Shown: piece by piece, positions 9,228 to 22,034 of the stretch
Layout: each line of letters starts with the position of its first letter
How positions within the stretch are numbered: the stretch's first letter is position 1
Source of the DNA: Thermohalobaculum xanthum
GTDB lineage: Bacteria; Pseudomonadota; Alphaproteobacteria; Rhodobacterales; Rhodobacteraceae
Assembly (NCBI RefSeq): GCF_016623495.1
Contig: NZ_JAEHHL010000002.1
Coordinates: 1 to 64,000, forward strand
Direction of reading: 5' to 3'
DNA length: 64,000 nucleotides
The notes under the pieces: generated by a model
The model's database searches: none
The model's input: the letters and a program-made list of their open reading frames with translations, nothing else
What the model was told of the DNA's origin: nothing
Made by a program: the position numbers and the translations under genes

Positions 9228-9238
9228 TCAGCTTCCGG
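9155..9238. repeat. Dispersed intergenic repeat, copy R2
   Basis: Matches 468-544, sharing GCGGACGAAGCCGACATTT exactly and the CAGCTTCCGG end. Its last bases overlap the stop codon of the DUF3604 gene (9228-9230). Confidence 0.6.
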
Positions 9239-11132
9239 GCGTGTACCAGATCGGCGACGTGTAGGCGCGGTCCTGCTGGGCCATCACCGCGTCCTCTGGC
9301 AGGTCGATATTGCCGTAGAACGCCTGATCGTAGGCGAGCCAGGAGGGCGTCGGGATCTCCAGTACGCGTACATAATAGTAGGCACGCTGCGCGGGGTCGA
9401 ATTCGGGGTCGACCCAGTGGCCGCCAAGCGCGGCCGCGCCGATCGTGTTGGTGAAATCCGCGCCCTGCACCGTGCTGCCCACGGGCGGCAGCTTGCCGTC
9501 CGCACCCAGGGCGCGGTCGCCCGACCAGGCCACGTCGAACACCTTGGTCTGCGGCTCGCCATCGGCCCCGACCCAGCCCTTGACGACCTGGATCCGGTCC
9601 AGGTTCGCCCCGTCCGGGTCGCGCAAGGCGCGGATCATCAGCGTGGGCGCGGCGCCCTCGGGTCCCGCGAACAGGTCGCCGCCCATCGGCACGCCGCGGG
9701 CATAGCCCGTCTCGGCGAAGTCGGGGCGGTGAACCTCTCCAGCCTCGAAGTCCCAGCCGGCGAAGACGCGCACGGTGATGCGCGAGCCTGTGGTGGCGTA
9801 AACCTCCTTGCGCTTGAACGCATCCCAGATCGCCTCGCGCGTGTTCTCCCGCGCCCATGCGGCGGCGAGGCCGGAGGCAAGCGTCTCGTAGTGCCGGATC
9901 GCGATGTCCTCGCCCAGAATGACCGGCTGGACGATGAAATCCTTGTAGCGCGCCGCGCCGGTGCCCGGCTCCACGATGCTCGCCTTGCCGAAGAAATTGT
10001 CCTCTCGAGTCGTGGCAAGCGACGTGTGGCTGTCCGTCGCGCCGATCAGGCCGAACTTGAAGGGGTTGGCGCCGATCTCCGCCTCGTATTTCAGGCCCCG
10101 CGCCAGCGCCTGCCGCGCGTATTCCCGCGGCAGCATGTCCGGTGTCTTAAGCTCGGTGCCGAAATTGCCGCGATCCCAAGTGTAGTAATCGGCGAACTCG
10201 TCGTTCGGGCTCAGGGCCGGGTGGGTCTCGCCGTCGCCCTTGATCTGGGTGACCTCGTAGAGCGGCTCCCACCGCGTTCGTCGCTCGGCGTAGGCAATAT
10301 CAATCGGCTCGCCGTTCATCCGCACATCGTCGAACATCAGCCCGTTGGAGAGGTTTCCGTTATGGGCAAAGGCCATGACGCGCCCGCCGGTGTCGGCTTC
10401 ATAGGCCTCCATCCAGTCCCACAGATCCTCCGGATCCGTGCTGTTATAGGTGGAAAAGGGCACCAGGCCCTCGACCCTGTCGGCGTCGTCGCGGAACATA
10501 ACGACCCGATGCAGGTTGTTCGCGTCCGGCCCCGAGGACCATTCGAACCCGTGGATCGCCGAAAAGACGCCGGGCGCGTTGTGGCGCTCGGCGCTGTCGA
10601 CGATGCGGTTCCACATCGTGCGCTGCAGGGTGTCGTCCTGGATCATGTCGACCGCCTCGTTGAGCGCGGCACCCCACTCGATATAGGCCGCGATCGGATC
10701 GCCGCCCTTGACCATGTCATGCAGCTTGCGGCCCCAGTCGTTGGCGAGCAGGCCGGGATTCGACTCCGCGATCATCGGCGCGAGGCCAAGGTTCTCGGCA
10801 TGATCCGCGACGACGAGGAAATCCAGCGGCCGGATCAGCTGCGCGTACTCGCCCATGGACGCGCGCACCTTCTCGCCGCGCGCGAAGCGGAACGCCTCGT
10901 CCGGGCCGAGGGTGTTGCCGATCATGCCGGCGTCGGTCGAGTAAGATGTATGCAGGTGCGTGTCGCCCCAGAACACGCGGTTCGGGTAGGACTGGTCGAG
11001 GAAGGGCGAATACTGACGCGCGCCAAGCTTCACGTCGTCCTCCTGGATCGCGACGTCGCCCACGTAGCCTTGCGCCAATGCTGCACTCGCAAAAAGTACA
11101 GACAGCCCCAAACCTTGCAAAACAGCTTTCAT
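9228..11132 (-). CDS. Secreted DUF3604 (PHP-like) protein
   Basis: A 634-aa exported protein. Residues 1-20 form a cleavable signal peptide (LGLSVLFASAALA before QG). GDTHLHTSYSTD (56-67) and FLVVADHAENLG (105-116) are the PHP-like metal-binding motifs of DUF3604, and ATDSHT later supplies another likely ligand. Length is usual for the family, whose activity is not established; a metal-dependent hydrolase of the periplasm is the usual guess. The ATG at 11132 is followed by a normal hydrophobic leader. A perfect TTGAT-N4-ATCAA box lies 61 bp upstream, suggesting oxygen- or nitric-oxide-dependent control by an FNR-type regulator. No operon partner is adjacent. Confidence 0.85.
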   Translation of the reverse strand: MKAVLQGLGLSVLFASAALAQGYVGDVAIQEDDVKLGARQYSPFLDQSYPNRVFWGDTHLHTSYSTDAGMIGNTLGPDEAFRFARGEKVRASMGEYAQLIRPLDFLVVADHAENLGLAPMIAESNPGLLANDWGRKLHDMVKGGDPIAAYIEWGAALNEAVDMIQDDTLQRTMWNRIVDSAERHNAPGVFSAIHGFEWSSGPDANNLHRVVMFRDDADRVEGLVPFSTYNSTDPEDLWDWMEAYEADTGGRVMAFAHNGNLSNGLMFDDVRMNGEPIDIAYAERRTRWEPLYEVTQIKGDGETHPALSPNDEFADYYTWDRGNFGTELKTPDMLPREYARQALARGLKYEAEIGANPFKFGLIGATDSHTSLATTREDNFFGKASIVEPGTGAARYKDFIVQPVILGEDIAIRHYETLASGLAAAWARENTREAIWDAFKRKEVYATTGSRITVRVFAGWDFEAGEVHRPDFAETGYARGVPMGGDLFAGPEGAAPTLMIRALRDPDGANLDRIQVVKGWVGADGEPQTKVFDVAWSGDRALGADGKLPPVGSTVQGADFTNTIGAAALGGHWVDPEFDPAQRAYYYVRVLEIPTPSWLAYDQAFYGNIDLPEDAVMAQQDRAYTSPIWYTPGS

Positions 11133-11611: not shown

Positions 11612-12682
11612 TCAGAGCGCGAACGAGACCGTGAGCACAATGAGCAATGAGATCGGATAAAGAGGTCGGGACCAGTAGTTAATGCGCTCGACGCGTGCCA
11701 CCGTACTGTGCTTGGCAATGTATGAATGTAAGACGGTCTGTACTAGGCTGAAAAACACCAAGAGCGTCGACAGCAGGATGAACTGATCGATCCGCGTGAA
11801 ATAAGGAACCTTGGGCAAGAGCACGGCAGTCGCGAATAAATAGGCGACGAGCGTAAGAAAGCCCGTCGCCGCGATGCCTATGCTTGTGCCAACTTCCTTC
11901 GAATCAATCCAGCGCGGCACCCACGACATAGCGACAATAAGACAGAGTGGGACGATCAACTTCCAAAAATAATAGTTCGGGATGCGCTCGACCGTGAGTT
12001 CAAGAATGAAACCCGCGGTTCCGACCTCCCCTTTGACCGGGAAGTAGCCGCGGGGCTCTGCCATCCAATCCACGACCCGGAAATCGGGAAGCGAGAAGGT
12101 CTCGGCAATCCCGGAGCGGCGGCCATGCGGCCCAGAAGCGGGAACCATATGTACCTCGGACTCAAACAGGCCGGCGGCGACCATGTGAATTGTCAGCTTT
12201 TGCCGATCAAGGGGAAACTCCCGAAGGTCGAAGGGTTGCGAGAACCAGCCCCACGTCTTCTGCCGCAGCACGACTGTTCCGTCCGGCAAGACCTCGACAA
12301 ACGACGGCAAGGCGTTCCATGCTTGCTGCTGGTTGACGATGCCGAGACGCGGAGTCCATACAGCACTCGTGGGAACGACCTTAGGTCCAGGGCCCGCATG
12401 GGCAAGGGACGGATCGCGCCACGTCGCCGCGTAATAGATGCCGGCCGAGAAGCTCTGGTTCGCAGAATCGACCGTATCGACGTCGAGGACATAGATTGCG
12501 GCGCCGACTTTGGTCGGCTCGCCCCATTTAGTGGGGCGAGGATGCATGGGCGTATTTGGAAGTTGGGAGGCACTTTGCTGGCCAGCGATCTCTCCGCTAG
12601 GGTCGGGAAGTTGCGCCGGTGCGGGCGTCTGAAAAAGAACAATCAGGACGAGAGTCCCTACGAAACAGAAAACCGTCTTCAT
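11612..12682 (-). CDS. Bacterial pentameric ligand-gated ion channel (Cys-loop receptor homologue)
   Basis: A 356-aa membrane protein of the GLIC/ELIC family. Residues 1-23 are a signal peptide, followed by a beta-sandwich ligand domain with the conserved Pro-loop region FDLREFPLDRQKLTI (151-165; no flanking cysteines, as in other bacterial members). Four helices follow: M1 about 237-257 (FWKLIVPLCLIV), M2 264-289, M3 297-322, M4 339-355. The M2-M3 link LPKVPYFT closely resembles GLIC LPKTPYMT. Glu263 aligns with the intracellular selectivity glutamate of GLIC, suggesting cation selectivity. The frame is open to a TTG/ATG at 12751/12748; I prefer 12682 because the signal peptide starts there, though the ribosome site is weak. 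Insertion-sequence scars flank the gene on both sides. Ligand unknown; proton or a small amine are possibilities. Confidence 0.88.
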   Translation of the reverse strand: MKTVFCFVGTLVLIVLFQTPAPAQLPDPSGEIAGQQSASQLPNTPMHPRPTKWGEPTKVGAAIYVLDVDTVDSANQSFSAGIYYAATWRDPSLAHAGPGPKVVPTSAVWTPRLGIVNQQQAWNALPSFVEVLPDGTVVLRQKTWGWFSQPFDLREFPLDRQKLTIHMVAAGLFESEVHMVPASGPHGRRSGIAETFSLPDFRVVDWMAEPRGYFPVKGEVGTAGFILELTVERIPNYYFWKLIVPLCLIVAMSWVPRWIDSKEVGTSIGIAATGFLTLVAYLFATAVLLPKVPYFTRIDQFILLSTLLVFFSLVQTVLHSYIAKHSTVARVERINYWSRPLYPISLLIVLTVSFAL

Positions 12683-13132
12683 GAGATCGTGCCCATTTCT
12701 ACCGCCGGTGCGGCGACGGCGCCGTTCTCCGTTTGACTGTTGAGGCATCAATTTCTGCTAAGGTTCGCACTACTTGTCATTGATACTAGGCGGCCCGGTC
12801 TGAATGCTCCCGATTGAAGGTTAGTCCAAAATGAACCTCTGGGCACTCCTCTCCTTCCGGAAACGTGCCCGAGAATTCGCACTCACATTGGATAAGTTTC
12901 ACGGGTCAGGACCCGGCTTCCCTGCCCCCCCTTAAACGAATTCCTGTCGTGGCTCCGGTTATGCACAAACTCATAGGACCAGATACGGTTGAACCGTTCG
13001 CCGCGAATTTGTGCGAGCGTACGCCAAAAAAAGATCTTTACGGAAATGTCCTGCGCCGCAGCCATCAGCGGTAAACGCGCGCGCCTCAGTCATCCCGCAA
13101 CGGGCTCCAAACGTCTCGTTCATCTCGCTCGA
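12683..13132. other. Intergenic gap with a transposase relic
   Basis: Apart from the IS3-type fragment at 12931-13005 nothing is recognised. Base composition is lower in GC than the genes to the right. Confidence 0.5.
12931..13005 (-). pseudogene. Fragment of an IS3-family transposase (OrfB)
   Basis: The leftward frame reads RGERFNRIWSYEFVHNRSHD, which parallels the start of the integrase core of IS3 OrfB proteins (typically RNHVWSYDFV.DRTHDG). The similarity stops after about 25 codons and the frame closes at 12883, so only a decayed scrap remains. It lies upstream of the ion-channel gene. Confidence 0.5.
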
Positions 13133-14170
13133 CTAATGCAGCCGCGTGATTTCCGGGAACGTCCAGCTTCCATCGAGAATCTCTGATCGAGGTTCATAGA
13201 GACGCACAGTGTAGTTCCAGCCTGGCGTGATCGGAATGCAGTTGATGCGGCCATCCTCGCAGCCGCCGAAATGGATGGTGTAGGAGCCATCGTCGTTCGG
13301 CGTCGCCGAGGTGTTGTTGTAGCTATTCCGGCCGAGCGCATTTGGCTCGAGATAGCCGTCGGCGTTGTATACTGTGATGGACCAGAAGGCGTCGACCGGC
13401 ACGTCCTTCACGGTGACCGCGTGCGGGGTGTCGCCGTCGTTCGCCGCGACGCTGTCGATGATCGCGCTTGCTGTTCGGGCCGGCTGTCCGGCCCAGCCCG
13501 CGAGGGCGCCGACCATGTGGTCTATGGGGTCGACCTCGTCCTTTCGGCCGAAGGCGCGGGCCGCGTCGAAGCCGATGGCGCTTGCGAGATCGTTCAGCGC
13601 GTTTCGCGCCTCGGCCAGGCTGTCGAGATCCCAGTCCGGCGCCTCGAACGGCCCCGGACCGCCGCCCGTCACCGCGATGCCGTCCTGCGCCGCGTGGGCG
13701 GCGGCAAGGTCATCCGACGCGGCCGCGTCGACGAAGGTGCGGAAGAGGATCATGGCGAAACGCGTGCCGACATCCTCCTCCGTCAGCGTGTAGGTTCCGG
13801 GAGATGCCTCCACGAACCCGTAGTGATCCTGGCTGATGACCAGCATGGACTGGAAGCGCCCCCCGATCTCGGGCAGCGTGACCGTCGCGGGCTCGGACAG
13901 GTCGAGCACGACGGCCGAATAGAGCGTGTCCTGGTTCGCCCGGATCACGGGCTGCGGCGCGTCGGCGGACACGGGCTCACGGAAATGGATGAACTCTCCG
14001 ATGCCGATGCCATGGGTGGCCATGTTGAGCCGGAACATGTGATCGGACTCGGCGCGCACGAGGTTTTCGAGCGTGACCTCCTCGGCCGCCGCGAGGCCCG
14101 GCAGGCAGAGGCCGAGGGCAATCGCGGCGGCGGAGAGGCGGGTCATGATCGGGCAGGCGGAGCGTCTCAT
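13133..14170 (-). CDS. DUF1254/DUF1214 periplasmic protein, copy 1
   Basis: A 345-aa exported protein with a signal peptide (AAAIALGLCLPGLAAA). The DUF1254 half has HFREPVSADAPQPVIRANQD and TLYSAVVLDLSE; the DUF1214 half has VDAFWSITVYNADGYLEPN and YTVRLYEPRSEILDGSWTFP, both typical. GAGGAG lies six bases before the ATG. The function of the family is not settled. It is the last gene of a seven-gene leftward set and is a paralogue of the protein at 16924-17991; the two share the NxDTLYS, FWSxxxYNA and GWNYTVRLY elements but only moderate overall similarity. The barrel gene upstream is 10 bp away. Confidence 0.85.
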   Translation of the reverse strand: MRRSACPIMTRLSAAAIALGLCLPGLAAAEEVTLENLVRAESDHMFRLNMATHGIGIGEFIHFREPVSADAPQPVIRANQDTLYSAVVLDLSEPATVTLPEIGGRFQSMLVISQDHYGFVEASPGTYTLTEEDVGTRFAMILFRTFVDAAASDDLAAAHAAQDGIAVTGGGPGPFEAPDWDLDSLAEARNALNDLASAIGFDAARAFGRKDEVDPIDHMVGALAGWAGQPARTASAIIDSVAANDGDTPHAVTVKDVPVDAFWSITVYNADGYLEPNALGRNSYNNTSATPNDDGSYTIHFGGCEDGRINCIPITPGWNYTVRLYEPRSEILDGSWTFPEITRLH

Positions 14171-14180
14171 CTCGATCTCC

Positions 14181-14987
14181 TCATCGCGGGAACAGGAGGG
14201 TGAACTGGAGGCGGAACCGGAAACCCTCGGGCCCGTTGTCGGGCGCGGTCGCCCAGTATCCAACGCCCCCCTGGAGGCTGACGGGCAGGCCGCCGAGCAG
14301 CAGCATCTTGCTGGCCGAGACATTGACCGGCACCGCCCAGTCGTTCGCGGTCCAGTCATAGGCACTCTCGCTCTGGATCGAGAACGTCCAGGCCGTATCG
14401 GTCGTGTATGCAGCGAAGGGCTGCATGAAGGTGCGGTTGATATCCGAGCGGTCGCCATCCCCAGCGAACGACCAGACATGGTTGACGAGGGCGCCCGCAG
14501 TCCAGGGCCCCCGCTGGACGAGCCCTACCGCGGTCGGGCCCGCGCCCCATTTCTCGGCGCCGAGGAGATCGTCGGTCGCGGTCGGCAGCAGCAGGATCGG
14601 GCCGACGCCCCAGGTGAAGCCGCCTTCGGTGATCTTCGAGGGCGAGAGGAACAGGCTCGTCGACATGTCGCCGAGTCCGAACTGCGAGCCTGCGCCAGGA
14701 AAGATGTCCTCCTGCCAGGTCACGGGGACGATCGTCCGCGTGATCAGGTTCCAGTCCTCGGTCACGCCGAACGGGATGACCGGCTGGATGTTGGTCGTCA
14801 GGCGGTCACCTGCGTCCTGCGGGCCGATATTACGGTCCCAGTTCATCTGCAACGGGATCGACACCAGCGAAGCGAGCGGATTGGCGAGTTCCTGCGCGAG
14901 GTCGTCGAGGTCGAGGGCCTCCTGCGCAATGGCTGAGCCCGCGAGCGTGAGGTTGGTCGAGATCGCGAGGGTGAGGAGGACCTTCAT
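14181..14987 (-). CDS. Outer-membrane barrel protein of DUF1254 loci
   Basis: A 268-aa protein with a signal peptide (LLTLAISTNLTLAGSAIAQ) followed by alternating amphipathic strands (LITRTIVPVTWQ, WGVGPILLLPTATDD, PFAAYTTDTAWTFSIQSE) ending in aromatic FRLQFTLLF, the usual signature of a porin-like barrel. Proteins of this kind are often annotated as transporter or phenol-degradation MetA-like. GAGAGG precedes the ATG at 14987; an in-frame ATG at 15005 overlaps the stop of the upstream gene. A role in moving hydrophobic compounds across the outer membrane is inferred from fold and neighbours only. Confidence 0.75.
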   Translation of the reverse strand: MKVLLTLAISTNLTLAGSAIAQEALDLDDLAQELANPLASLVSIPLQMNWDRNIGPQDAGDRLTTNIQPVIPFGVTEDWNLITRTIVPVTWQEDIFPGAGSQFGLGDMSTSLFLSPSKITEGGFTWGVGPILLLPTATDDLLGAEKWGAGPTAVGLVQRGPWTAGALVNHVWSFAGDGDRSDINRTFMQPFAAYTTDTAWTFSIQSESAYDWTANDWAVPVNVSASKMLLLGGLPVSLQGGVGYWATAPDNGPEGFRFRLQFTLLFPR

Positions 14988-15001: not shown

Positions 15002-16894
15002 TCATCGTTGCGGCGAGAAGGCCGCCGGCGGGACGACGACCGCCCGTTCGGGCACGTATCGGTCGAAGAGATCGATCAGGTGTGCGGCCTCGGCTGCGTC
15101 GCCAGTGATGTCGATCTCGCCGGCCGCCGCCAGATCGGGAACGCTTGCGACACTGAGATAGAGCTTCGCCCACGCGGCCCCCGAGAGCGCGATCGTCACG
15201 TCGGCCGGACGGTAATGGCTGTCGGGCGACGCGACGAACTCCGCCACCGCCCGGCGGATATGGAGCGCGGCCGTGCTGCCGTCGGTGAAGTCGAGGCGCA
15301 GCACCCTGTCCGTGCCGCCGCTCCGCTCCGGGTCGATCCGGACGCGGAAGTAATCGACATAGGTCGCGGGCGATGCGGCGATGACCTCGGGCGCCGGCGG
15401 GATGATCCGCGGGATCGTGACCTTTCCCTCAAGCGCGAGGGCCTGGGACATCAGGTGCGCGCGGTCGTTGGCGCCGGTCGAGACATAGGCCATCTGGCGC
15501 AGCGCGTCGGCCTTGACCTGCCGGACGTCGGCGTCCTGCGGGTCGAGGCGGTAGAGGTAGTTCACGAGCTGCGCGGCCCAGGCGTATTCCTTCCTCGCGA
15601 GTGCCTCTCGCGCCGCAGAGAGCACGGCGTCGCGACCGCCCATGAGCGGCACGATGCGTGCGGCCTCGTCCTCGGGCGACACCGACTTGAGGGTCGCCGC
15701 ATCGTTGTCGTACCAGCCGATGCACTGGTAGTGGATCGCGGGCGTGTAGGTCGAGATCTCCCCATAGTTTTGAAGGTTGTGGGGAATCTCGTTCAGGTAG
15801 TCGGGAAACCTGACGAGGTGCCGGAGTTCGTCCGGACCCTTGCCCCCGAGGATGCCCCGCAGGCTCTGGTCGAGGACGAAACTCGCGCCGTCGAGGTAGC
15901 CCTCGAGGATGCGCTGGATCGTCTCCCTTCCGACGAGGGGGCGGCAGGCCGCGGAGACGAGGACGTCGGGTTGCAGGTCGCGGTTGAACTTCAGGCCCGC
16001 GATCCAGTCGCGCGGGTCGCGGAACACGTCGCCGCGCAGCGAGTAGAGCTGCGGCGGGCTCGACCACAGCATCGTGGTGAAGAGGATGCGCCGGTCCGGC
16101 AGCCAGACCGTGGTGTGGACCTTGTCGTCCGATCCATATTTCGTGAAGAACTGCATCTTCTGGCCGAGCACGGTCATCTCCTGCCCGTCCTTGACCGGCG
16201 TGTTCACCGGAATGAACGCGAATTCGGGCGACTCGAGGTTCGTCGGCACGACATAGGCATCCGGGCCGGATTTCGGCATGAACCCGTTGAACTGGATGAA
16301 CATCCGCGCGGTCAGGTAGGGCCCGATCTCCGGGTAGAAGGCGGGCGCGCCGCCCGCGTTCGCGGCCACGACCGCGTTCAGGTCGGGGTGGCCGATGATC
16401 GTCAGGTCGTCGCGGCCCTCGGCGAGAACTCCGGCGCCGAAGCAGGTGTGTGAATGGCCGTAGATGATCGCCTTGACCGGCTTGTCGCTGACGGTGCGGA
16501 GCGCCGCGAACATCAGTTCGCCGTCATGCTTGGTGTCGCCGGTGTCGAAGGCGATCAACCCCTCGGGCGTGTCGATGACCGCCATGGGCGCGAGCCCGTA
16601 GCCGCCGAAGACCCAGATCCCCTCGGCTGGCTGCTCGATCGTCGGCTCGACCCACCCGACCTTGTCGATCCCGTCGAGCAGCCGCTTGTTGGTGATCGCC
16701 CCGTTCGGCGCGGTCACGAGCTCGACCGGCGCGCCCATATAGGCGTCGATCTGCGCGGTCGAGGAGGACAGGTCCCGCGTGCCAGCGACCTCTGCCGAGG
16801 CCGGAGCCGCGAAGAACCCGCCCGAGGCTGCGGAAGCGGAAGCGAGCGCGGTCGCGGAGACGAGCACGTCGCGGCGGTTCGGTCTGGAAGGCAT
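15002..16894 (-). CDS. Tat-exported alkyl-sulfatase-like metallo-beta-lactamase-fold protein lacking metal ligands
   Basis: A 630-aa protein. A twin-arginine signal (NRRDVLVSATALASA) begins it, and the start at 16894 has GGGAGAG upstream. The body matches linear alkylsulfatases of the SdsA1 type: metallo-beta-lactamase fold about 50-330, dimerisation domain about 340-490 (YGEISTYTPAIHYQCIGWYD, LAARKEY-like helices) and SCP2-like C-terminus about 510-630. The metal motif HxHxDH reads HSHTCF (147-152), so the Asp and third His are replaced. The later SHGWPVWG-type ligand segment reads SAACRPLVG. Catalysis of the SdsA type is therefore doubtful. It sits between a DUF1254 gene (gap 29 bp) and a barrel gene, in one operon. 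Confidence 0.8.
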   Translation of the reverse strand: MPSRPNRRDVLVSATALASASAASGGFFAAPASAEVAGTRDLSSSTAQIDAYMGAPVELVTAPNGAITNKRLLDGIDKVGWVEPTIEQPAEGIWVFGGYGLAPMAVIDTPEGLIAFDTGDTKHDGELMFAALRTVSDKPVKAIIYGHSHTCFGAGVLAEGRDDLTIIGHPDLNAVVAANAGGAPAFYPEIGPYLTARMFIQFNGFMPKSGPDAYVVPTNLESPEFAFIPVNTPVKDGQEMTVLGQKMQFFTKYGSDDKVHTTVWLPDRRILFTTMLWSSPPQLYSLRGDVFRDPRDWIAGLKFNRDLQPDVLVSAACRPLVGRETIQRILEGYLDGASFVLDQSLRGILGGKGPDELRHLVRFPDYLNEIPHNLQNYGEISTYTPAIHYQCIGWYDNDAATLKSVSPEDEAARIVPLMGGRDAVLSAAREALARKEYAWAAQLVNYLYRLDPQDADVRQVKADALRQMAYVSTGANDRAHLMSQALALEGKVTIPRIIPPAPEVIAASPATYVDYFRVRIDPERSGGTDRVLRLDFTDGSTAALHIRRAVAEFVASPDSHYRPADVTIALSGAAWAKLYLSVASVPDLAAAGEIDITGDAAEAAHLIDLFDRYVPERAVVVPPAAFSPQR

Positions 16895-16923: not shown

Positions 16924-17991
16924 TCATCGCGCGTCGGCGGGCCGTGCGGCCGGGAAGACCCAGCTGCCGTCGAGGATCGCGGGTTCTGGCCGGTAGAGAC
17001 GGACCGTGTAGTTCCAGCCCTCCATGATCGGCAGGCAGTTGACGCGGCCGTCATCGCAGCCGCCGAGATGCACCGTGATGCTGCCGTCGTCGTTTGGCGT
17101 CCCGTTCACCGAGTTGACCGAATAGGCGCCGAGCGGGTTCGGCTCGAAGAAGCCTTCGGCGTTGTAGAGGCTTACGGACCAGAAGGCGCCCACGGGCACG
17201 TCGGCGGGCACGTCAATCCTGTAGGTGCCGACGGGCAGGCCGGGCTCGGCGTTCAGGTAGAAGGCCTCGGTCTCGGGCAGGCCGCCCCAGCCGACCGCGG
17301 TGCCGAGGAAATGGCGCACCGGCTCCACGTCCTCCTTCCTGCCGAAGACGCGGAAGCTGTCGGGCGCGAAGCGTCCGATCTCGATCGTGGCGCGGAGCAG
17401 GCCCTCGAAGCTTTCCTCGTCGTAGTCGGGAACGACGAAGGGCTCGGCCGAGCCGGCCTCGACCGTCATCCGGTCCTGGATCACGTTCACGGCCGCGACA
17501 TCCTCGGGGTCCGAGGCATCGACGAGGACGCGCAGGAAGACGATGACATAGGGCGTGTCGAAGCTCGCCATGTCGAGCGTGTAGGTCCCGCCCCCGAAGA
17601 AGACCTCGTTGATGTAGTGATCCTGGTTCACGACCATCGCTGTCATGTAGCGGTCTCCGACGTCTGGCAGGGTCAGCGTCGCGCCCTCGCGGATGTCGAT
17701 CACTGCGGTGCTGTAGAGCGTGTCGCGGTTCATCCGGATCGTCGGCTGCCTCTCGACCCGCGTCGGGGTGCGGAAATGGAAGAACCGGTTCACACCACCG
17801 GCGAGCGAGACATATTTCCCGAGCTCGATGTCGGTGGCGGCGCGCACGAAGTTGTCGATGGTAACGGGGATCTCCAGGCTCTCGGCTAGCGCATCGAGCG
17901 TCCGGTCCGGGTTTCCCGCCGTCGCCGGGAGCGACAGTGCGGCGAGGTGAGCCGCGAAGGCCGACAGCACGAGGGGGCGAAAGACCGGCAT
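16924..17991 (-). CDS. DUF1254/DUF1214 periplasmic protein, copy 2
   Basis: A 355-aa exported protein with signal peptide (LVLSAFAAHLAALSLPATAG). DUF1254 features include FFHFRTPTRVERQPTIRMNR and DTLYSTAVIDI; DUF1214 features include VGAFWSVSLYNAEGFFEPNP and NYTVRLYRPEPAILDGSWVF. Second of two paralogues in the operon; each copy is preceded by a barrel-protein gene (18059-19000 before this one, 14181-14987 before copy 1), suggesting duplication of a barrel/DUF1254 pair or parallel recruitment. Reaction unknown. Confidence 0.85.
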   Translation of the reverse strand: MPVFRPLVLSAFAAHLAALSLPATAGNPDRTLDALAESLEIPVTIDNFVRAATDIELGKYVSLAGGVNRFFHFRTPTRVERQPTIRMNRDTLYSTAVIDIREGATLTLPDVGDRYMTAMVVNQDHYINEVFFGGGTYTLDMASFDTPYVIVFLRVLVDASDPEDVAAVNVIQDRMTVEAGSAEPFVVPDYDEESFEGLLRATIEIGRFAPDSFRVFGRKEDVEPVRHFLGTAVGWGGLPETEAFYLNAEPGLPVGTYRIDVPADVPVGAFWSVSLYNAEGFFEPNPLGAYSVNSVNGTPNDDGSITVHLGGCDDGRVNCLPIMEGWNYTVRLYRPEPAILDGSWVFPAARPADAR

Positions 17992-18058: not shown

Positions 18059-19000
18059 TCAGAACTTCCAGGCGATCCCGAGCGTGCCGTAATCCGATTT
18101 CAGGCGGTTCTTCGCGTGGATGTCGTGCATCCACTTGCCGTAGATGTTGAGCCGTCCGCCGGCGAAGGCCGGTGACCAGAGGAACCCCGGACCGAGGCCG
18201 ACCGACTCGGACTTGAAGCTGCCGAGCCGCGCGCCGCTGCCACTGTCGCCCGTGACCTGGTCGTACCAGTAGCCCTTCAGTCCAATCGCAAAGGTCTGCG
18301 ACAGGAACTGGTTGACGGTGAAGTCCATGTGGAACTCGGCGCCCGTCTTATAGTCCGTGGCGTCGTTGCGGGTATTCACCATGATCCCGGGCGCGATCGA
18401 GACCTCGGTGCCCCATTCCTGGTCTAGCCATGTGACGGCGCCGACGGAGTCGAAGCTCCAGTAGTTCCGGCCGAGATTGGCGAGGCGCGAGACGTCGTAG
18501 CCGCCCGTCGGTGCGATTACCGCCTGGGCGAGCTTGAAGTGGAAGTTCCCGGTGTTCCAGTTCAACTGGAAGGGGACGAAGGCGATGTCGCTCAGGTCGA
18601 AGCTGTCGTCGCTTGTCCGGAACGTGTTTCCGAGCGGGCCGCGCAGCGTCGCATCTATGCTCGCATAGCCGAAGGGCACGACCGCGCCGACCGTGTAGGT
18701 TAGGCCCGGTACGGGGAGGCCCCATGTATAGGTTCCGATCGCAAGATTGAGGAATACGTCCGCCGAGAGGTCGAGATCGACCTGCCCTTGCAGGACGGCC
18801 GCACCGACGCTGCCACTCTGAAACCAGGCGATGTCGGCAATCTGGAAGCCGGGTGCCGGAGATAGCGCGATCGCGAAGTCACCAGCCGTGCCGGGAAGGT
18901 AATGGCTCGAAGCGCCCTCGGCCGCGCGGGCACCCTCGGCCGTCAGCGCACCTGCGATCACGATCGCCGCGGTGATGGCCTGCCTCGACAAACGTCGCAT
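18059..19000 (-). CDS. SphA/MetA-type outer-membrane barrel protein
   Basis: A 313-aa protein with signal peptide (ITAAIVIAGALTAEGARA). The mature start SSHYLPGTAGDFAIALSPAP is the hallmark of the phenol-degradation MetA-like/SphA family, which form outer-membrane barrels implicated in uptake of hydrophobic compounds. The C-terminus ends in the aromatic YGTLGIAWKF. GAGGGG lies eight bases before the ATG at 19000. It follows the glycine-zipper gene by 44 bp on the same strand. A frame extension of more than 100 codons upstream overlaps that gene and is not coding. Confidence 0.8.
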   Translation of the reverse strand: MRRLSRQAITAAIVIAGALTAEGARAAEGASSHYLPGTAGDFAIALSPAPGFQIADIAWFQSGSVGAAVLQGQVDLDLSADVFLNLAIGTYTWGLPVPGLTYTVGAVVPFGYASIDATLRGPLGNTFRTSDDSFDLSDIAFVPFQLNWNTGNFHFKLAQAVIAPTGGYDVSRLANLGRNYWSFDSVGAVTWLDQEWGTEVSIAPGIMVNTRNDATDYKTGAEFHMDFTVNQFLSQTFAIGLKGYWYDQVTGDSGSGARLGSFKSESVGLGPGFLWSPAFAGGRLNIYGKWMHDIHAKNRLKSDYGTLGIAWKF

Positions 19001-20419: not shown

Positions 20420-21427
20420 ATGATCGCCCTCCAGAACAGCCGGGTCTTCGGCCCGATGAACCGGATTGCGGCCGAGCTCTATTCACGACGCGCCGTCGAT
20501 GTCGGATGGCAGCGAGTGGGGCTCAGCCCCGACATCCTCGACGGCCCACCGCTCTTCCTGCCCTATCGCATTCAGGCCGAAGTGATGGAGGCGATGGCGC
20601 GCACGCTCGGCGAGCGACATCTCGGCGCCATGGTTGCCGCCCGCTACAGTTACGAGGATCTCGGGATCTACGCCGGTTACGTTCTTGACGCGCCGAGGCT
20701 CGACAGTGCCTTTGCGCGTGGCATCGCGGCGCTTCGGACGGTCTTAAGCCATGCCAAGGCCGGCCTTCGGCCCTCGGGCGATCGTCTCGTCCTGAGCTAC
20801 GAGTCCGGCATCCGATCAGTCGTCGGCAGCCGCCACATCGACGAGGGGCTTCCCCTCATCCTCACGGATCTTTGCCGACGCTTTCTCGGGTCCGGCTGGT
20901 ATCCCGAGTGGGTCGAGCTGCCGGGCGCGCGGCCACCGACGGCACAAACTCTCTCGGTGCTTTTTGGGGCGCCAGTTCACTTTGGCTGCGATCTTCCGGG
21001 GATCGCGCTGCGACCGAAGGATCTCACGCGAGCGAACCTCGCACCACGCCCGGCGCGTGAAGTGGTCGTGGCAGCCGATCTCCGCGAACTCCTCTGCAAT
21101 CAGCCGCCGAGCACAGCGACCGGGGTCGTGCGCGAAGCGATCGAAGTGCAGCTTCGGCTCGGCGACACTTCGTTAGAGAAGGTCGCCGCGCGCCTTGGTC
21201 TCGGCCCGCGCAGCCTTCAGCGCCGGCTGGCGGTCGAGGGGGCAGAATTCCGGACGCTGCGACAGAGCATCCTCAGCGCACGTGCGAGGGCGCTCGTTAC
21301 CGAGACCAGTCGACCGCTTAACGAGATCGCCGCGGCGCTTGGCTACGACGAGGTCAATTCCTTCCGGCGGGCCTTCCGGTCCTGGTTTGGCGCTTCGCCC
21401 TCTGCAGTACGGATGAAAGGAGCCTAA
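20420..21427 (+). CDS. AraC family regulator with arabinose-binding-like sensor domain (OruR/ArgR type)
   Basis: A 335-aa regulator. Residues about 25-210 resemble the N-terminal sensor of OruR/AraC-type proteins (SYEDLGIYAGYVL, GWYPEWVELPGARP, LFGAPVHFGCDLPGIAL). The last 100 residues carry two helix-turn-helix motifs (LEKVAARLGLGPRSLQRRL and LNEIAAALGYDEVNSFRRAF ending FGASPSAVR). It is transcribed away from the MORN-led operon and is the obvious candidate for its control; the inducer would presumably be a small hydrophobic or amino-acid-like compound, which is inference. No strong ribosome site is visible at 20420. Confidence 0.85.
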   Translation: MIALQNSRVFGPMNRIAAELYSRRAVDVGWQRVGLSPDILDGPPLFLPYRIQAEVMEAMARTLGERHLGAMVAARYSYEDLGIYAGYVLDAPRLDSAFARGIAALRTVLSHAKAGLRPSGDRLVLSYESGIRSVVGSRHIDEGLPLILTDLCRRFLGSGWYPEWVELPGARPPTAQTLSVLFGAPVHFGCDLPGIALRPKDLTRANLAPRPAREVVVAADLRELLCNQPPSTATGVVREAIEVQLRLGDTSLEKVAARLGLGPRSLQRRLAVEGAEFRTLRQSILSARARALVTETSRPLNEIAAALGYDEVNSFRRAFRSWFGASPSAVRMKGA

Positions 21428-21958: not shown

Positions 21959-22034
21959 TGGCTCCGGCGGCAGGACTCGAACCTGCGACCCGCGGATTAA
22001 CAGTCCGATGCTCTACCAACTGAGCTACGCCGGA
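21959..22034 (-). tRNA. tRNA-Asn (GTT)
   Basis: A 76-nt leftward tRNA with encoded CCA. The acceptor arms TCCGGCG and CGCCGGA pair fully, the D arm contains AGCTCAGTTGGTAGAGC, the anticodon loop CTGTTAA gives GTT, and the T arm contains GGTTCGAGTCC. No integrase or attachment-site duplication is seen next to it. Confidence 0.97.

Follow-up and report, generated by a model that had tools for sequence, protein, structure and literature searches.

Closest described alkylsulfatases

Type III alkylsulfatases combine an MBL fold with the Alkyl_sulf_dimr and Alkyl_sulf_C/SCP2 domains and carry a binuclear zinc set made up of HxHxDH, a Glu/Asp, a bridging Glu and a late His. In work attributed to Knaus in 2012, a His of Pisa1, numbered H317 in the alignment made here, is reported to be the general acid that protonates the leaving sulfate. 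A review describes the general acid only as "a histidine residue" (PMC3920027). In SdsAP, zinc 1 is held by Asp196, His197, His367 and Glu322, and zinc 2 by His192, His194, Glu303 and Glu322, with Pisa1 having an Asp at the position of SdsAP Glu303 (PMC5426288).

Gene, domains and export signal of P0001

The gene compared here with these enzymes, P0001 (15002..16894, minus strand), lies in a window of 64,000 nucleotides, which is the whole stretch of DNA analysed, and encodes a putative Tat-exported alkylsulfatase-like MBL protein of 630 aa, reading from 16894 down to 15002. The protein would be 11 residues longer if it began at another ATG in the same frame, at 16927, but the start at 16894 has a clear Shine-Dalgarno (AAGGGAGAGAGTG-ATG) and opens the twin-arginine signal MPSRPNRRDVLVSATALA. 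On the plus strand of 15002-16894, long open frames are present, none of them gene-like on ORF inspection.

P0001 has the domain set of the type III alkylsulfatases in Pfam (Alkyl_sulf_dimr, 1e-30; Alkyl_sulf_C, 7e-12; SCP2, 2e-4), with Lactamase_B below the threshold, an absence to be expected if the metal motifs, on which the Lactamase_B profile depends, are damaged. The nearest solved chains in a phmmer search of the PDB were YjcS, SdsA1, Pisa1 and SdsAP (E 1e-38 to 1e-27), and the strong matches were confined to the alkylsulfatase group. The AlphaFold2 model (pLDDT 78.9) is weak at residues 181-197, 285-291 and 376-395, with the 285-291 segment, near the metal site, below 50; its best Foldseek match was SdsA1 (2cfu; TM 0.70, E 1e-33, 627 columns). 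Pfam, phmmer and the model thus bear out the alkylsulfatase-like fold with dimerisation and SCP2-like domains named in the preliminary description, and its Tat-type signal is also visible, as a twin-arginine motif (NRRDVLVSA) recognised by eye ahead of a hydrophobic stretch, NRRDVLVSATALA. The Tat route is a local feature: the motif recurs in the orthologues L006 and L011, and several other orthologues without it have Sec-like or lipoprotein-like N-termini. P0001 shares with SdsA1, SdsAP and Pisa1 this domain architecture and a signal peptide, at 20-25% identity, and stands on a separate branch (support 100/100).

Metal ligands lost and retained

The segment HSHTCF replaces HxHxDH at residues 147-152, and SAACRPLVG lies around A316, both as first described. 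Alignment with SdsAP places the seven metal ligands of the alkylsulfatases in two sets, four missing from P0001 and three kept. Among the missing, Asp196 and His197 have been either substituted or deleted, with T150-C151-F152 standing in this region (the position of the gap is uncertain), the bridging Glu322 aligns with T274 or its neighbour, and His367 corresponds to A316. The kept ligands are His192 (H147), His194 (H149) and Glu303 (D256), the last standing for a Glu of SdsA1, as does the Asp of Pisa1; a conserved RG past the ligand loop is also common to P0001 and the three alkylsulfatases. The binuclear set is therefore incomplete, and HxH with the third histidine-site ligand, that is, one half-site, is found at the sequence level. 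P0001 is thus a protein without the tight Asp-His half-site and the bridge, in which the histidine half-site's own three ligands are retained.

The earlier statement that the protein "lost its metal ligands" consequently stands for the late His, the acid at the bridge and both residues of the Asp/His half-site and fails for H147, H149 and D256, which are invariant in 25 of 25 relatives (27-76% identity to P0001); mapping on SdsAP, SdsA1 and Pisa1 gives this division, with four ligand positions lost, and the HxH and the acid at the SdsAP Glu303 position kept. Only four of the 91 H/D/E/C residues are invariant in those 25 sequences (H147, H149, H169 and D256), and three of the four are histidine-site ligands (hypergeometric 3e-5, relatedness ignored). 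This conservation could be structural rather than metal-related. Here it is proposed, with about as much confidence as doubt, that P0001 is an exported dimer which has one metal site and, in its C-terminal part, a hydrophobic pocket, and which acts with the other products of its operon on a ligand other than a sulfate, by binding or converting it. One metal ion would be bound at H147/H149/D256, possibly with H260; the protein would form a dimer of the alkylsulfatase type, its SCP2-like domain would offer a hydrophobic pocket, and the ligand bound or converted would be hydrophobic and not a sulfate ester.

The position of the general acid points the same way with respect to sulfate esters. Pisa1 H317 aligns with P281 of P0001, the His is missing from P0001's clade as well, and Pro is also found at this position in sister clades with canonical ligands, His being limited to the SdsA1-type group. 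A working alkylsulfatase with a two-metal site rebuilt from other residues would agree with the unchanged overall fold and domains, with the best fold matches being alkylsulfatases, and with the conservation of H260 and D257 within P0001's own clade (12 members for H260); it is nevertheless very unlikely, given the change of the general-acid His to Pro, of the bridging acid to Thr and of SdsA1 Asn307 to Gln, and the two intact canonical SdsA1-type paralogues that the same genome already encodes. The group is probably not one of alkylsulfatases; its member on a Vibrio plasmid has no more specific annotation than "alkyl sulfatase dimerization domain-containing protein".

The preliminary description had also suggested that Cys residues take part in a new chemistry, and C151 and C317 do lie at or beside lost ligand positions. 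Both vary even in close orthologues, position 151 being C/V/A/S/L/T and position 317 C/T/A/S/H/G among the relatives, and all three Cys of P0001 are unconserved; the suggestion is thus unsupported and was rejected as highly improbable.

Subfamily, phylogeny and selection

The genome scan gave 20 loci of the P0001 family, to which further searches added more, and the tree was built on 37 rows. Uncharacterised sister clades with canonical ligands (such as G301/L033, G039/L005 and G763/L051) have, like P0001, Pro for the general-acid His; unlike P0001, they carry the full two-metal set HxHxDH...E...D/E...H. The loss of Asp-His, the change of Glu to Asp and the loss of the bridging acid are shared by 25 of the 37 rows (branch support 100/100). 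Thirteen of these 25 form the HxHY group, which includes the Vibrio fortis plasmid, Aquiflexum, Variovorax and Binatota sequences and resembles P0001 in its lost Asp-His and its His-His-Asp half-site; these rows have Asn at the bridge and a Tyr after HxH, and the late His is kept in 12 of the 13. The remaining 12 rows, all of which lack the late His, group together (100/100); among them, L015 and L016 retain Tyr and Asn, whereas the ten rows closest to P0001, in contrast to the HxHY group, have Thr at both the Tyr and the Asn positions (100/99) and Ala, Gly or Phe at the late His.

The ligands were thus lost stepwise along the tree, on supported branches, and the subfamily would derive from a branch of dinuclear hydrolases that neighbours the type III alkylsulfatases. 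The sequences of the group provide a stepwise record of a two-metal active site dismantled under selection. No paper on the P0001 group was found in the literature search. In the Aquiflexum genome (L020, 9370-14068), two HxHY copies occur in tandem with an alpha/beta hydrolase between them.

The further loss of Tyr, Asn and the late His in the core clade, residues of the pocket that are still present in relatives, argues against the one-metal reading, as it would also suit a drift to pure binding. This is part of the case for the main rival, the first option of the preliminary description, in which P0001 is a pseudoenzyme, with neither metal nor catalysis, acting as a dimeric lipid- or ligand-binding protein or as an assembly partner of the DUF1254/1214 proteins. 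That four of seven ligands are gone favours it too, as does the precedent of the class-C flavodiiron proteins, an MBL fold able to lose all metal (PMC7785958). It is harder to reconcile with the finding that most acidic and His residues vary while precisely those three that are left as ligands of the half-site do not. The pseudoenzyme is considered a real possibility, though at less than even odds.

In Nei-Gojobori comparisons within the family, pN was well below pS (e.g., dN 0.17 vs dS 1.0), and P0001 is a member of an old subfamily under purifying selection and not a lone degenerate enzyme. Some copies do decay, as the Roseibium aggregatum orthologue (L017) has two in-frame TAG codons, which represent a decayed copy or a sequencing error; for P0001 itself, a decaying pseudogene or a sequencing artefact was rejected as having almost no probability, since its frame is intact, it is under purifying selection, and the 64-76% identity maintained across many hosts argues strongly against it.

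Gene neighbourhood

Five minus-strand genes, separated by 10-67 bp, form a tight operon of which P0001 is the third. The first encodes a barrel-type protein of the PF13557 (Phenol_MetA_deg) family, likely in the outer membrane (18059..19000), and the second, 29 bp upstream of P0001, a secreted DUF1254/DUF1214 protein of 355 aa (16924..17991), identified by Pfam and placed by its Shine-Dalgarno and spacing. Its product has a VPA0106/VPA0735-like fold, the fold family of these two DUF1254/DUF1214 proteins being represented by 3u07, 2p3y and 3vb9. Downstream of P0001 are a likely outer-membrane beta-barrel of 268 aa (14181..14987), recognised as such by eye and belonging to no Pfam family, whose homologues adjoin eight other family members, and a second DUF1254/DUF1214 protein in Pfam (13133..14170), of 345 aa from its likely start. 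In the one-metal reading, the ligand would enter through the barrels and be handled by the DUF1254/1214 proteins, whether in the periplasm or on the outside of the cell.

Nearby are a minus-strand gene for a DUF3604 protein with PHP-like motifs seen by eye (9228..11132), which has a homologue beside two family members (L008 and L010), and a divergent AraC-family regulator with Arabinose_bd and HTH_18 domains (20420..21427, plus strand), which has a homologue at the side of the Ruegeria cluster. A homologue of bacterial pentameric ligand-gated ion channels (11612-12751, minus strand; Neur_chan_LBD and Neur_chan_memb in Pfam) separates the DUF3604 gene from the operon. An Rfam scan of the cluster gave no match, and promoter and terminator scans gave counts no higher than chance.

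In the core clade, seven orthologues (L006, L008, L009, L011, L012, L013 and L019) have DUF1254/1214 genes next to them on the same strand, and in the outer group the domains are found beside L023 and fused in L021. The linkage was absent at L010, L015, L017, L020 and L022, and at L007 and L014, which are on short contigs; at L016 the genes are 11 kb away. Most hosts have few DUF1254/1214 domains per genome, and the DUF1214 domains lie near the family gene in two of three cases in P0001's genome (4.05 Mb, both in the operon), in two of two in Ruegeria, and in three of three each in Winogradskyella and Desulfosarcina. As DUF1254/1214 genes also adjoin three relatives with canonical ligands (L032, L033 and L054), the association may be older than the loss of the ligands. 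This repeated company offers a handle on the function of two common domains. The literature on DUF1254 with alkyl sulfatase, DUF1214, DUF3604 and VPA0735 yielded no paper on function.

The fusion in L021 (8957-11737, plus strand), from a Candidatus Binatia MAG, is a natural protein of 926 aa that joins DUF1254-DUF1214 to an HxHY alkylsulfatase-like part. This Binatota fusion, together with the operonic linkage, also counts in favour of the pseudoenzyme as a partner of the DUF1254/1214 proteins.

Among other neighbours, PF00884 FGly-type sulfatase genes occur near clusters at L006 (12364-14745, minus strand) and L012 (6757-9135, plus strand), with a related ORF in L011; a possible link to FGly sulfatases is thus limited to three loci. 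Radical SAM proteins are encoded directly upstream of the family gene or a few kb from it at L010 (8528-9901, plus strand; weak SPASM match) and L018 (5515-6864, plus strand).

Distribution and mobility

P0001's own clade includes sequences of Ruegeria, Thiorhodococcus, Eudoraea and Winogradskyella, of Desulfobulbaceae and other MAGs, and a Synechococcus record for which culture contamination is possible. A close copy of P0001 was found only in its own genome among 61 genomes, which included four others of the same genus, and family members are rare in samples of the class, of the phylum and of the Eudoraea family. The family copies of Thiorhodococcus and Eudoraea are 80% identical and their RpoB 47%; for Thiorhodococcus and Ruegeria the values are 70% and 59%, the control for host divergence being RpoB comparisons with Thiorhodococcus only. 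We infer from these identities that the family gene has moved across phyla. A more tentative reading, rather more likely wrong than right, is that these exported MBL proteins of several phyla are an undescribed subfamily that uses a single two-His-one-carboxylate metal centre. Together with DUF1254/DUF1214 proteins and outer-membrane barrels, they would make up a module of the cell envelope that is passed on horizontally and has a chemistry new to the fold.

Concerning possible vehicles, no relative of P0001 was found among the IMG/VR viral contigs searched for phage carriage, and plasmids had distant relatives only (best 36% identity, Vibrio fortis). No direct repeat longer than 13 bp that would mark an island at the tRNA-Asn, and no att repeat, was present in the 64-kb window. 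Same-genus synteny ends at this tRNA-Asn (21959..22034, minus strand), with the cluster on its 3' side, where positions 1-21900 of the window form a variable region that has no counterpart in the 18 kb past the same tRNA of a same-genus genome.
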